From positions 1 to 30,393 of the IMG/VR virus record IMGVR_UViG_3300017727_000090: DNA of 30,393 nt. The stretch is one strand, 5' to 3'. The position numbers and the translations under genes are program-made. Below the pieces are notes generated by a model. That model was given only the letters and a program-made list of their open reading frames with translations, ran no database searches and was not told the DNA's origin. Source of the DNA: a virus. Shown here one piece after another: positions 28,136-30,393 of the stretch. Within the stretch, counting starts at the first letter, position 1; each line of letters starts with the position of its first letter.

Positions 28136-28315
28136 CTATTCGCCTATCTTATGTAGGCGAAGGCCCGGAATGCCATTGTAGTCATGATACTCCCATTCTA
28201 ATACGTCTCCTTCTCCCCATTGAAGTTCATCGATGAGTGATGGAGGGATTGTTATGAAGTAATCTTCAGTATCTGAGTCATACTGAACTTCTGTACTGTA
28301 TTCATTGATATTCAT
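28136..28315 (-). CDS. Small AbrB/MazE-like protein (59 aa)
   Basis: The ATG at 28313-28315 opens MNINEYSTEVQYDSDTEDYF, ITIPPSLIDELQWGEGDVLE, WEYHDYNGIPGLRLHKIGE. The core 'YFITIPPSLIDEL.W.EGDVLEW' is the pattern of the SpoVT/AbrB swapped-hairpin domain (IP..l...L....GD.v.w), used by MazE-type antitoxins and AbrB regulators to bind DNA. Similar stand-alone proteins occur in cyanophages. No toxin gene is adjacent, so a regulator or a free-standing fold is more likely than a toxin-antitoxin pair. A second in-frame ATG four codons in is possible. No ribosome site is clear. A hairpin overlaps its stop codon. The assignment rests on a short motif. Confidence 0.72.
   Translation of the reverse strand: MNINEYSTEVQYDSDTEDYFITIPPSLIDELQWGEGDVLEWEYHDYNGIPGLRLHKIGE
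28139..28161 (-). other. Hairpin across the 3' end of the 59-aa gene
   Basis: TTCGCCTA (28139-28146) and TAGGCGAA (28154-28161) form a perfect 8-bp stem with a 7-nt loop, abutting the TAG stop on the minus strand. No U-run follows, so it is not a classical terminator; it could stabilise the upstream mRNA 3' end or modulate translation of the 1385-aa gene starting 29 nt downstream. Confidence 0.5.
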
Positions 28316-28351: not shown

Positions 28352-28561
28352 TTATTCCCAATCTTGCAATGTTGGGTGATATTTCAGATACTCCCAAAAT
28401 GTCATCTTGAGTTCCCTCTGAGTCATCCCACAATGTCTTGCAGCTTCTGGGAGATTCATTGTTGCATGATATAACCCTTCATGTGCTTCACGAACATTCT
28501 CTGGAGTGGTCTTCTTGGGAACTTCTACGAGTTCTTTTTTATTTACTTGAAGTAGACTCAT
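28352..28561 (-). CDS. Small HTH-like protein (69 aa)
   Basis: The product begins MSLLQVNKKELVEVPKKTTP, then ENVREAHEGLYHATMNLPEA and ARHCGMTQRELKMTFWEYLK, ending YHPTLQDWE. The segment from about residue 36 to 60 (NLPEAARHCGMTQRELKMTF) has the spacing of a helix-turn-helix (helix, turn at CGMT, recognition-type helix QRELKMTF). Proteins with this ending recur in cyanophages, without known function. A DNA-binding regulator is plausible, not shown. It lies between the GC-rich small genes and the structural block. No strong ribosome site precedes the ATG at 28559-28561, and no convincing promoter was found in the 141-nt gap upstream. Confidence 0.75.
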   Translation of the reverse strand: MSLLQVNKKELVEVPKKTTPENVREAHEGLYHATMNLPEAARHCGMTQRELKMTFWEYLKYHPTLQDWE

Positions 28562-28645
28562 AGGGGATTTTTGGCTGGGAAAATTTTTTTAATTCAGAGT
28601 GTTATCGAGAGGTCGAATCTGGTCCGTTATAGATTAGGGTAGTTA

Positions 28646-28682
28646 GGGGTTTTCGCCCCCATACCATAGGGGCCAGTGCCCC
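28646..28682 (-). other. Alternating G-run/C-run hairpins in the 141-nt gap before the HTH-like gene
   Basis: The gap 28562-28702 contains four alternating runs, given on the plus strand: GGGG (28646-28649), CCCCC (28656-28660), GGGG (28669-28672) and CCCC (28679-28682). Either the first and last pairs fold (4-bp and 5-bp stems; GGGGC-CAGT-GCCCC is the better) or the middle two pair (GCCCC/GGGGC). No U-run follows in the transcribed direction. An attenuator-like or processing function between small genes and downstream genes is possible. The rest of the gap shows only an A/T-rich stretch near 28581-28592. Confidence 0.4.
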
Positions 28683-28702
28683 GTTAGCATCTTGTTAGCA
28701 CA

Positions 28703-28924
28703 TCACATGGCCTTAGAGCACTTGTTGCCAGACTTGACCGAAGCAGCACCAGGGACACTGCCGTGCTGGAAGGCACCTTTAGGTGCGGCGTTTGCCCAAC
28801 CACGTTTGCCGGTGAGTGCCTTGACGCCACGACGTGAGGGGCGGAGCACTGTAACCTTAACTTTCTTGCCGTCTGCCTGTAGGGCGGTGGCAATGTCGAG
28901 CAGGTTCTGAGTGGCGGATGTCAT
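28703..28924 (-). CDS. Small basic protein of unknown function (73 aa)
   Basis: The protein begins MTSATQNLLDIATALQADGK, which can form an amphipathic helix. A strongly basic part follows: KKVKVTVLRPSRRGVKALTG and KRGWANAAPKGAF, then a G/S/A/K-rich tail ending NKCSKAM. It has about 13 K/R and 2 acidic residues, so binding to nucleic acid or an acidic partner is plausible; I recognise no family. The start at 28922-28924 fits a good sigma-70 promoter (28947-28975) and the same A/C-rich leader used by the 79-aa gene. No Shine-Dalgarno is visible in that leader. Base composition is much more GC-rich than the structural genes. An antisense frame of similar length is considered a shadow. Confidence 0.72.
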   Translation of the reverse strand: MTSATQNLLDIATALQADGKKVKVTVLRPSRRGVKALTGKRGWANAAPKGAFQHGSVPGAASVKSGNKCSKAM

Positions 28925-28952
28925 GTGAGTTTGTTTGTATGTGGCTATTGTA
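28921..28952 (-). repeat. Promoter/leader repeat, copy 1 (before the 73-aa gene)
   Basis: A 32-nt element covering -10 box, leader and start codon is nearly identical to 29214-29246: one substitution and one inserted base. On the minus strand it reads TACAATAGCCACATAC, an A/C-rich stretch, then CACATGA. Confidence 0.8.
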
Positions 28953-28975
28953 CAGGGTCAGCGGTCAGGTGTCAA
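28947..28975 (-). promoter_or_regulatory. Sigma-70 promoter of the 73-aa gene
   Basis: Minus strand: -35 TTGACA (28970-28975, perfect), a 17-nt spacer, -10 TACAAT (28947-28952, 5 of 6). The spacer ends in TGACCCTG, a box also seen before the -10 at 29655-29660. The -35 lies just after the stop codon of the 79-aa gene, and the leader is about 15-20 nt. Confidence 0.8.
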
Positions 28976-28977
28976 CC

Positions 28978-29217
28978 TCAGACCAGCAACTCAAGAGCAG
29001 GCGTAGCAGCATCGATTGTCTCGTCGGCATAGACTCTCACCCAACGGATCGGATCACCAGCAGTCAAACGCCAGATCATCATGTCGCCATCCTCTCCCCC
29101 TGCCCTCCACTGTCGGCAGATCTCGTAAGCGTGTGAGATGTTGATGGCGTAGTCAGCACCTGCCTCATCGAAGCATCCCCAGGCGTTAGGTTGGACAGCG
29201 AAGGTTGGCAGAGTCAT
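28978..29217 (-). CDS. Small protein of unknown function (79 aa)
   Basis: The product begins MTLPTFAVQPNAWGCFDEAG and continues ADYAINISHAYEICRQWRAG, GEDGDMMIWRLTAGDPIRWV, RVYADETIDAATPALELLV. It is acidic (about 12 D/E against 5 R) with several Trp and no membrane segment. I recognise no family. The ATG at 29215-29217 lies 23 nt behind a TACAAT box, and its leader is an almost exact copy of that of the 73-aa gene, which supports the start. Its GC content and lack of a Shine-Dalgarno match the neighbouring small genes. It is probably an early-expressed accessory protein; that is inferred from the promoter type. Confidence 0.75.
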   Translation of the reverse strand: MTLPTFAVQPNAWGCFDEAGADYAINISHAYEICRQWRAGGEDGDMMIWRLTAGDPIRWVRVYADETIDAATPALELLV

Positions 29218-29246
29218 GTGGGTTTGTTTCGTATGTGGCTATTGTA
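29214..29246 (-). repeat. Promoter/leader repeat, copy 2 (before the 79-aa gene)
   Basis: A 33-nt partner of 28921-28952, differing by one substitution and one inserted base. It includes -10 TACAAT (29241-29246), the A/C-rich leader and the ATG. Confidence 0.8.
29241..29246 (-). promoter_or_regulatory. -10 element (TACAAT) of the 79-aa gene; -35 weak
   Basis: TACAAT matches 5 of 6 consensus bases and lies within the repeated leader element. At 17-nt spacing the -35 position reads TTCCTA, a poor match. A small hairpin, CCCTT-CCT-AAGGG on the minus strand, lies just upstream in the 68-nt gap 29218-29285. Confidence 0.5.
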
Positions 29247-29285
29247 GGCCATAGCCCCTCCCTTAGGAAGGGCCGTTGTGACAGT

Positions 29286-29447
29286 TTAGAAATCGATCTC
29301 GTCTGATCGTCCATAAGCAGCAAGTCCTGTAGTCTGGTCTGGCATAGCACCTAGTTGTTGCAGCATGCTGAGGTCCTCCAAACGTGTCAGCAGTTCGCTG
29401 GTGTTGGTGGCGTCACGAAGCAGGGCGATGAGTTGTTCTTTGTTCAT
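29286..29447 (-). CDS. Small helical protein of unknown function (53 aa)
   Basis: The ATG at 29445-29447 opens MNKEQLIALLRDATNTSELL, TRLEDLSMLQQLGAMPDQTT, GLAAYGRSDEIDF. The first ~35 residues are predicted helical with leucine-rich faces and could form a helical hairpin or coiled coil; the end is polar and probably flexible. No family is recognised. It starts 35 nt after the 45-aa gene with an A/C-rich leader (CACTCACACAACACC before ATG) and no ribosome site or promoter of its own, so it is probably transcribed from the promoter at 29655-29684. Codon use is GC-rich like its neighbours. Confidence 0.68.
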   Translation of the reverse strand: MNKEQLIALLRDATNTSELLTRLEDLSMLQQLGAMPDQTTGLAAYGRSDEIDF

Positions 29448-29482
29448 GGTGTTGTGTGAGTGAGTGGGTGGATGAGTAAGGA

Positions 29483-29620
29483 TTAGAAATTATCGTCATA
29501 ATCGTTCTCTCTGATGTCATCTTCGGAGAGTTTGGTGGGTTCATCGTCCCATCGTGGTTCCTCTTGTAGGAACACATCTGCACAGTCTAAGTATGCAATC
29601 TCGTTGAATTCGTCGTTCAT
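29483..29620 (-). CDS. Strongly acidic small protein (45 aa)
   Basis: The product is MNDEFNEIAYLDCADVFLQE, EPRWDDEPTKLSEDDIREND, YDDNF: 17 acidic and 3 basic residues, net about -14. The frame is open up to 29680, but that extension would translate the promoter at 29655-29684, so the ATG at 29618-29620 is preferred. The leader is A/C-rich (CAAACAGACAAACAAC) like those of neighbouring genes. Very acidic small early phage proteins sometimes act as DNA mimics or bind host nucleic-acid-binding proteins; for this protein that is speculation. No domain is recognised. It is followed after 35 nt by the 53-aa gene, with which it likely forms a two-gene operon. Confidence 0.7.
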   Translation of the reverse strand: MNDEFNEIAYLDCADVFLQEEPRWDDEPTKLSEDDIRENDYDDNF

Positions 29621-29654
29621 GATTTCTAAGAGTTGTTTGTCTGTTTGGAGAGCG

Positions 29655-29684
29655 ATTGTACAGGGGTCAGTATACATCATGCAA
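29655..29684 (-). promoter_or_regulatory. Sigma-70-like promoter of the 45-aa/53-aa operon
   Basis: Minus strand: -35 TTGCAT (29679-29684), an 18-nt spacer, -10 TACAAT (29655-29660). The spacer ends TGACCCCTG, almost the same box that precedes the -10 at 28947-28952. The -35 overlaps the stop codon of the 108-aa gene upstream. The leader to the ATG at 29620 is about 28 nt. Confidence 0.65.
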
Positions 29685-30003
29685 GACGCATACCAGAACG
29701 AAACTCAGTAGTGAAAAACTCTGTACCGTTCCACAATCTGATGAACCACTCAAAGTTTTTCTGGAATACACCCTCTCCAGTGACACCGTGTTCTGACAGA
29801 ATTGCATTCAAACGTGATTTAGTGGTGTTTGACTGATAACCCCCATCATACAGTTTGATCGAATCATCGGTGATTTCTGCAATCAGATTGTTGTGAAGAT
29901 AGACAGAGGAGACACCCTCAACGGTCTCAACGCGAGTGTTTGCAGTTCTCCAGTCTGTACCCTCTGAAATTGCGTTGTTCATCTGGGTTTCGATCTTACG
30001 CAT
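29677..30003 (-). CDS. Conserved phage protein of unknown function (108 aa)
   Basis: The product begins MRKIETQMNNAISEGTDWRT with ANTRVETVEGVSSVYLHNNL, IAEITDDSIKLYDGGYQSNT, TKSRLNAILSEHG and VFQKNFEWFIRL. The pattern 'M..IE.qMN.Ai.....w..aNT.V.....VS.V.LHgN.IA.i.d....l.d.GyqS.TTKSRLNAil.e.g.....qk.f.WF' belongs to a widespread family of small proteins in cyanophages and other phages. Its function is not known to me. The ATG at 30001-30003 has a ribosome site GGAGA about 8 nt upstream, unlike its neighbours. A weak sigma-70-like promoter (30032-30060) precedes it. Its stop overlaps the -35 of the next promoter. Confidence 0.82.
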   Translation of the reverse strand: MRKIETQMNNAISEGTDWRTANTRVETVEGVSSVYLHNNLIAEITDDSIKLYDGGYQSNTTKSRLNAILSEHGVTGEGVFQKNFEWFIRLWNGTEFFTTEFRSGMRLA

Positions 30004-30031
30004 GGTTGGTCTCCGTTTGGTTGATGTAGCT

Positions 30032-30060
30032 ACAATACACGATTTTGAGGTCAGTGACGA
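30032..30060 (-). promoter_or_regulatory. Weak sigma-70-like promoter of the 108-aa gene
   Basis: Minus strand: -35 TCGTCA (30055-30060, 4 of 6), a 17-nt spacer, -10 TATTGT (30032-30037, 4 of 6). The bases after the -10 (AGCTACATCAACCAAAC) align with the repeated leader of the 73- and 79-aa genes, which argues that the site is real though weak. Confidence 0.4.
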
Positions 30061-30084
30061 AACCGTGTGACACTAGTCTGACTG

Positions 30085-30264
30085 TCACAGACCGTTCAGG
30101 TAGTCTGCGAGTTCCTCATCATACTGTTCTTTGGTCTCAAAGGTCCTCCCATGGATGACACAAGGAAACGTCTTCTCAAGACCTGCAGACGCGACCATCT
30201 CGCAGTCTTGACGATCGTAACCCATCTCAACGAGTTGGTTGACGTAGGGGTTGTTTGATTTCAT
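30085..30264 (-). CDS. Small cyanophage-type protein (59 aa)
   Basis: The ATG at 30262-30264 opens MKSNNPYVNQLVEMGYDRQD, CEMVASAGLEKTFPCVIHGR, TFETKEQYDEELADYLNGL. The C-terminal pattern 'G.tFeTkeqYdEeLaDyLNG' is recurrent in small cyanophage proteins. The N-terminal VNQLVEMGYDRQDCEMVASA superficially resembles the UBA three-helix fold (L.eMGy.r......A), but such matches arise easily and no ubiquitin system is expected. Function unknown. The start overlaps the stop of the gene upstream (ATGA, 4 nt), so the two are coupled. A 5-bp hairpin (GTCTG/CAGAC, 30076-30092) overlaps its stop codon. Confidence 0.75.
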   Translation of the reverse strand: MKSNNPYVNQLVEMGYDRQDCEMVASAGLEKTFPCVIHGRTFETKEQYDEELADYLNGL

Positions 30265-30393
30265 GAGAACAATTCAGTGATTTTTGATTGGACAGAATAA
30301 GACAATTCGGTCTCAGTCTCTCCATGATCTTGATAGTCGGCCATCGCATCATAGATCGCATTCCACTCATCTTCAGTGAAAAACTCTTTGATG
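30261..30393 (-). CDS. Small protein, C-terminal part (runs off right edge)
   Basis: Only the last 43 codons and the stop are in the window: IKEFFTEDEWNAIYDAMADY, QDHGETETELSYSVQSKITE, LFS. The pattern 'FTe.EW.aIYdAmaDY.......S.vqsKI.eLF' resembles a family of small acidic helical proteins common in cyanophages; function unknown. Its TGA overlaps the ATG of the 59-aa gene by 4 nt. The start codon lies outside the window. Confidence 0.65.
   Translation of the reverse strand, partial: IKEFFTEDEWNAIYDAMADYQDHGETETELSYSVQSKITELFS

Follow-up and report, generated by a model that had tools for sequence, protein, structure and literature searches.

The Small-Gene Locus and Its Repeated Element

The window analyzed here is a whole IMG/VR record of 30,393 bp. 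Because this record is possibly a fragment, copies of any element lying past its end cannot be counted. Based on family matches (Kyano_Gp96 [PF23790], phrog_554, 649, 6036, and 1920) and on similarity to 285 records of Synechococcus, Prochlorococcus, and other cyanophages, we place the window in the Kyanoviridae, as a T4-like cyanophage. According to one study, the genes alt, modA, modB, motA, and asiA are absent from cyanomyoviruses (PMC2984593). Directly before the tail genes, at 28136-28315, lies a 59-aa protein scoring above the Pfam threshold for the MazE antitoxin domain (27.0 bits against a cut-off of 24.7). The right end of the window holds a row of small genes on the minus strand, with the following features:

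28703..28924, minus strand: gene A, 73 aa (MTSATQNLL...), with relatives in 17 viral loci
28921..28952, minus strand: element copy A, with the -10 box TACAAT at 28952-28947, AGCCAC at 28946-28941, the leader, and ATG at 28924-28922
28978..29217, minus strand: gene B, 79 aa, phrog_6036 (E 8e-32), found in 56 phage records
29214..29246, minus strand: element copy B, with the -10 box TACAAT at 29246-29241, AGCCAC at 29240-29235, the leader, and ATG at 29217-29215
29677..30003, minus strand: Kyano_Gp96 gene (PF23790, phrog_554), a neighbor in the shuffled cluster
30024..30037, minus strand: TATTGTAGCTACAT before the Gp96 gene, a candidate diverged relative of the element

Two unrelated small genes in this row are preceded by the same minus-strand sequence, TACAAT-AGCCAC-ATAC(G)AAACAAAC(T/C)CAC-ATG. 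Copy A (28952-28921) reads TACAATAGCCACATACAAACAAACTCACATGA and copy B (29246-29214) reads TACAATAGCCACATACGAAACAAACCCACATGA. The copies lie 294 bp apart and are separated by an edit distance of 2, and alignment bears out the one substitution and one inserted base that a preliminary description of this DNA had reported. That description had the duplication covering the -10 box, the leader, and the first codon; we find all three within it, the -10 box forming one end and the bases immediately behind ATG the other. Upstream of the -10 box, the DNA of the two copies is wholly different. The proteins behind the copies are also dissimilar, as had been claimed, with an alignment score of 16 against a shuffled mean of 21.5 and no blastp match at E 0.01. 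In 200 simulated windows (first-order Markov), the nearest match to copy A was 6 edits away, reached in 1/200, and usually 9; for the early region (28560-30393), 1,000 simulations came no nearer than 8 edits. The best further match in the real window stands at 9 edits.

Gene A had no match in protein family searches. It occurs in two forms (the window at 28703-28924; L004, L053, and L103), which agree over about 27 N-terminal codons and diverge thereafter; S-PRM1 also has the C-terminal part of the second form, without this N-terminus. The TATTGTAGCTACAT stretch, which probably represents a diverged relative of the element, precedes both the Gp96 and the phrog_649 genes in two related loci (L103 and L178).

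Recurrence in Related Phages

The preliminary description had proposed a portable expression cassette, copied and maintained by selection, and had suggested searching relatives for further copies, whose absence would point to a recent accident. Such copies were found, both before homologues of the two genes and before other gene families, and the cassette proposal is thus well supported. It may also coordinate the timing of early genes, as that description suggested. In relatives, copy A and copy B are each kept upstream of their own gene. Allowing up to 3 mismatches, the element was present in 9 of 22 records, at least twice in 8 of these 9, and in 0/22 for the reversed control; at this threshold the other 13 records, including Syn1, S-CAM3, S-RIM44, S-H9-2, and Syn9, gave no match. 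The exact gapped pattern was found in six viral contig stretches, three of them with both copies, and a looser pattern in 11. A scan allowing up to 2 mismatches returned 14 exact matches in 8 records. It also returned 13 inexact matches, which were left uncounted because the reversed control gave nearly as many (11).

Several gene families lie behind the element: genes A and B, phrog_871 genes (MNGW..., MTAST..., and MNGF...), the MEIL... and MTNN... genes, phrog_14769-like genes, and, in a few phages, phrog_649 and Gp96. After removal of near-identical and too-short upstream stretches, the motif TANNNT[AG]GCC[AG][CAT] occurred in 46 of 175 distinct stretches and in 8 of 9 small-gene families, with 0 throughout in the reversed control. 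Family shares were 12/20 for gene A, 8/16 for phrog_6036, 12/46 for phrog_871 (with L127, L021, and L057 counted twice among the matches through alternative starts), 3/11 for phrog_14769-like genes, and 3/3 each for MEIL and MTNN; these shares, and the 45-site counts given below, are raised by some loci having been located via the element itself. Gp96 (4/57, from 80 of 245 loci taken in), phrog_649 (1/15), and g65 (0/4) had low shares and mostly other starts. The element is thus common before some families and rare before others.

Per record, the copies number two to four and lie in one cluster. S-CAM9 carries four exact copies (47317, 47571, 47782, and 47979), all within 676 bp and before four genes, with no further copies even when two mismatches are allowed, and S-PRM1 has three (up to 3 mismatches) within about 0.5 kb. 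The element thus behaves as a local cassette rather than as a signal spread over the genome; a genome-wide early signal was rejected for the exact element, as both of these genomes are complete and their copies are confined to one short cluster. A host origin was also considered: a scan of genome contigs gave two matches, in Pseudoalteromonas and an Oligoflexia MAG, and none in a cyanobacterium, and we take both as chance. We found no description of the element in the accessible text of the literature searched, including PMC4503421, PMC3203893, PMC3037559, PMC2984593, and PMC6722890, most subscription papers lying outside the search.

In two of these phages, annotated minus-strand genes overlap plus-strand frames behind the element (S-CAM9 47290-47430 and 47904-48317; S-PRM1 142815-143195). 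The overlapped plus-strand frames, some of them unannotated, have relatives, and the existing annotation there may be on the wrong strand.

Upstream Sequences

The divergent DNA upstream of the two copies contains the following features:

28970..28975, minus strand: -35 box of copy A, TTGACA, 17 nt before the -10 box, with 11/12 consensus matches
29253..29274, minus strand: hairpin upstream of copy B, 9 bp, where a -35 box would be
29277..29285, minus strand: box ACTGTCACA, immediately behind the upstream gene's stop codon, with similar boxes elsewhere

A sigma-70 layout (TTGACA-like and TATAAT-like boxes 16-18 nt apart) is present in copy A and absent in copy B. The promoter scan that gave the -35 box of copy A found overall no more sites than in shuffles; TTGACA or TTGACG at 16-17 nt recurs in 6 of 7 sites before the gene A family, with a varying spacer. 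For copy B no -35 box was found, the best candidate having 3/6 matches. Among 45 distinct element sites, 3 of which (L098, L100, and L185) look like chance, 21 have a -35 box of at least 4/6 matches at 16-18 nt and 24 have fewer than 4/6. Since copy B and these 24 sites lack a good -35 box, not all sites need be ordinary sigma-70 promoters. By a hand count from the site list, GGCC stands directly before the -10 box in 21/45 sites. At these sites, most of which lack a good -35 box, GGCC(C)-TANANT-RGCC makes up an inverted repeat that encloses the -10 box and could represent an alternative promoter type or an operator.

The hairpin of copy B ends 6 bases before its -10 box and folds in six sequences, that of the window and those of five relatives, with energies of -16.3 to -18.6 kcal/mol and z scores of -1.8 to -3.4. 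It is paired in all six sequences (54/54 cells pair; 16/500 shuffles reach that), and two of its nine pairs are changed on both sides, only in the window sequence, which lends modest support to conserved pairing. Upstream of copy A, no significant fold was found in three phages, and the stretch before one S-PRM1 copy folds no better than shuffles (z -0.28). A canonical intrinsic terminator was rejected for the copy B hairpin, which the terminator scan did not list and which is not followed by a T-run. Counts of the box A[CG]TG[TG]CACA are unconvincing alone: 11 in S-PRM1 (simulated 8.0, reversed 6), 19 in Syn1 (11.5 and 3), and 23 in Syn9 (8.6 and 3).

A separate arrangement was seen in five complete cyanophages, where a strict scan for -35 boxes overlapped by a hairpin gave 26 cases where simulation gave 3.2 and reversed sequence 7; the window had none. 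It resembles a terminator and the next promoter in one: a hairpin followed by a T-rich stretch, a TTGAC-type -35 box within the loop or next to it, and, 16-18 nt on, a -10 box. Examples are Syn1 184263, G009 6723 (minus strand), S-CAM3 187667, S-H9-2 107901, and S-PRM1 63353.

Putative Leader and Start Site

From the -10 box into the gene, the stretches of copies A and B fold at 0 kcal/mol. In some family members exactly 6 nt separate the -10 box from the ATG (TACAAT-AGCCAC-ATG). We found the pattern GCCCTACAATAGCCACATG in 14 viral contig stretches, where the open frames measure 52-62 aa, and S-CAM9 has an annotated start of this kind (47583). If these 6-nt-spaced genes are leaderless, the RNA would start at the A after AGCCAC, which would give the window copies leaders of 16 and 17 nt:

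28925..28940, minus strand: putative leader of copy A, 16 nt, its start placed by way of the family members in which 6 nt lie between -10 box and ATG
29218..29234, minus strand: putative leader of copy B, 17 nt, its start placed in the same way

The 6-nt spacing was seen in L101, L121, L129, L186-L191, and L194, with codons 2-3 often AAC/AAA, and suggests that small genes of some cyanophage families have leaderless messages. Leaderless genes were rejected as a genome-wide class: the 6-nt spacing from a -10-like box to ATG was counted 26 times, many of these inside genes, and the reversed hexamer gave 14; the layout is suggested for certain families alone. Between a -10-like box and ATG, 22 nt was the most frequent spacing (43 cases; reversed hexamer, 27).

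Gene Replacement and Insertion Between Copies

Gene content around the element varies among relatives. Between genes B and A there is nothing extra in the window, in G001-G004, or in L103, and an additional phrog_871 gene with its own element in G005, G008, and G009 (a variant element in the latter two). The order of the Gp96, phrog_6036, phrog_871, and phrog_14769-like genes also differs among phages (e.g., L121, L158, and L170). Compared with the window, L103 is 97% identical in the gene before copy B and 94% in both copies, and only 59% in gene B, which still belongs to phrog_6036; blastn found no match to L103 over 29187-28981. To the right of copy A identity is 79-83%, and at the gene A end 64%. 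In G003, both copies are retained together with gene B (96%) and codons 1-27 of gene A (91%), after which a different C-terminal part follows (62%); the breakpoint thus lies inside gene A, after codon 27. Exchange borders therefore fall at the element in some cases (L103 and the insertions) and within a gene in another (G003). The replacement in L103 and the insertions in G005, G008, and G009 fall between element copies, which makes the element a candidate border of genes exchanged between related phages. Homogenization of copies within genomes is weak, with 108 of 5040 permutations reaching the observed mean and kinship not removed.

Comparison With Known Systems

Promoter early stem-loops (PeSLs) of T4-type phages were reportedly described by Arbiol and co-workers in 2010 and by Comeau and co-workers in 2014. 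A PeSL is a composite of an early promoter and a stem-loop. Like PeSLs, the element is a short, predicted early-promoter module that lies between small genes in a variable region, recurs within one genome (2 to 4 copies per record), and is possibly associated with gene replacement and insertion. Unlike PeSLs, its conserved part consists of the -10 box, AGCCAC, and the leader down to ATG, and its copies are few and in one cluster. We regard it as a variant and do not assign it to the PeSLs because in these promoter and stem-loop belong together, and neither window copy has both: copy A is promoter-like only, and copy B has a hairpin without a -35 box. In cyanophage S-PM2, according to one study, PeSLs are too sparse to explain the ORFan island (PMC4503421).

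The start-associated sequences (SAS/ESAS) of Cluster K mycobacteriophages, GGGATAGGAGCCC, which their authors tie to translation start, likewise stand directly before the start codons of different families, and about half of them also have inverted repeats upstream (PMC3203893). The likeness is in position only: the sequence is unrelated, the element here contains a -10 box, and the SAS consensus as given there occurs in neither window copy. Sigma-70-like early promoters have been described for S-PM2 and Syn9 (PMC2984593), and the -35/-10 layout of copy A is like these. At 159918, Syn9 has TTGACT-17-TATAAT-GGCCACAT. Unlike the S-PM2 and Syn9 promoters, the element here also has a spacer and leader common to unrelated genes.

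A Proposed Interchangeable Start for Early Genes

We propose, with a probability of roughly 0.68, that each copy supplies the promoter core and leader for an early transcription unit of a single gene, that the locus holding both units shuffles fast, and that the copies serve as a recombination linker as well. Computed features underlie this proposal: the sequence, its recurrence before different families, the clustering of its copies, a gene order that differs among phages, a divergent allele with a conserved copy on either side, and the hairpin of copy B. From them we infer that the copies act as promoters, where transcription starts, that it is early, and that recombination at the element caused the shuffling. 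TACAAT would be recognized by the RNA polymerase of the host carrying its principal sigma factor, in copy A together with TTGACA 17 nt upstream, and the first transcribed base would be the A that follows AGCCAC, about 7 nt downstream of the -10 box. A leader of 16-17 nt, A/C-rich, unstructured, and lacking a Shine-Dalgarno sequence, would then form the 5' end of the RNA and lead straight to AUG. In a co-infected cell, homologous recombination from one copy to another could exchange, add, or remove the gene that they flank, and because several units carry the same start of about 30 bp, a gene could be swapped without loss of expression. The element would be kept by its promoter and leader function and double as the linker. 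The lack of alt, modA, modB, motA, and asiA in cyanomyoviruses and the sigma-70-like early promoters of S-PM2 and Syn9 also speak for this proposal. Against it speak the missing -35 box of copy B and the 24 weak sites, the other starts of most Gp96, phrog_649, and g65 genes, the records without a match (Syn1, S-CAM3, S-H9-2, and Syn9), the G003 breakpoint, the divergence of L103 to the right of copy A, the weak homogenization, and the sparse PeSLs of S-PM2.

It is also conceivable, if unlikely, that the promoter and leader are under selection only, their likeness going back to an old local duplication or to convergence, with no special role for exchange between copies, while genes move by illegitimate recombination. 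The breakpoint inside gene A of G003 and the weak homogenization of copies fit this account, and for a different gene island in a cyanophage, mispackaging together with illegitimate recombination has been proposed (PMC4503421). It does not readily explain near-identity over about 30 bp, discriminator and leader included, before unrelated genes, nor the replacement of gene B between two conserved copies in L103, nor inserted genes that bring their own element copy. We give a much smaller chance to an operator, with a phage regulator binding the GGCC(C)-TANANT-RGCC inverted repeat around the -10 box. GGCC does directly precede the -10 box in 21/45 sites, most of them without a good -35 box, but copy A and other sites without this left arm keep the -10 box, AGCCAC, and leader, and conservation of the leader would be needless for an operator. 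A recent accidental duplication in this phage only, which the 294-bp distance between the window's copies might suggest, is scarcely credible, as relatives with about 84-85% DNA identity have both copies in the same places and more before other genes.

Beyond the proposed promoter-leader and linker role at this locus, we offer a broader and tentative idea, which we think rather doubtful as a whole: in marine cyanophages, the -10 box with AGCCAC might be an interchangeable docking module, joined upstream to a full -35 box or to GGCCC or a hairpin and downstream to a short G-poor leader or a leaderless AUG. Recombination at the module might reassort one-gene units, and switching between leadered and leaderless starts might alter translation.

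Phage variable regions hold many tiny genes of unknown function. The element may aid their annotation, as in S-CAM9 and S-PRM1, where frames behind it are unannotated and overlapping opposite-strand frames are annotated. If the proposed reading is true, a common promoter and leader would explain how genes are swapped with expression retained, and the element provides a concrete sequence for testing gene swapping and expression in phage variable regions.
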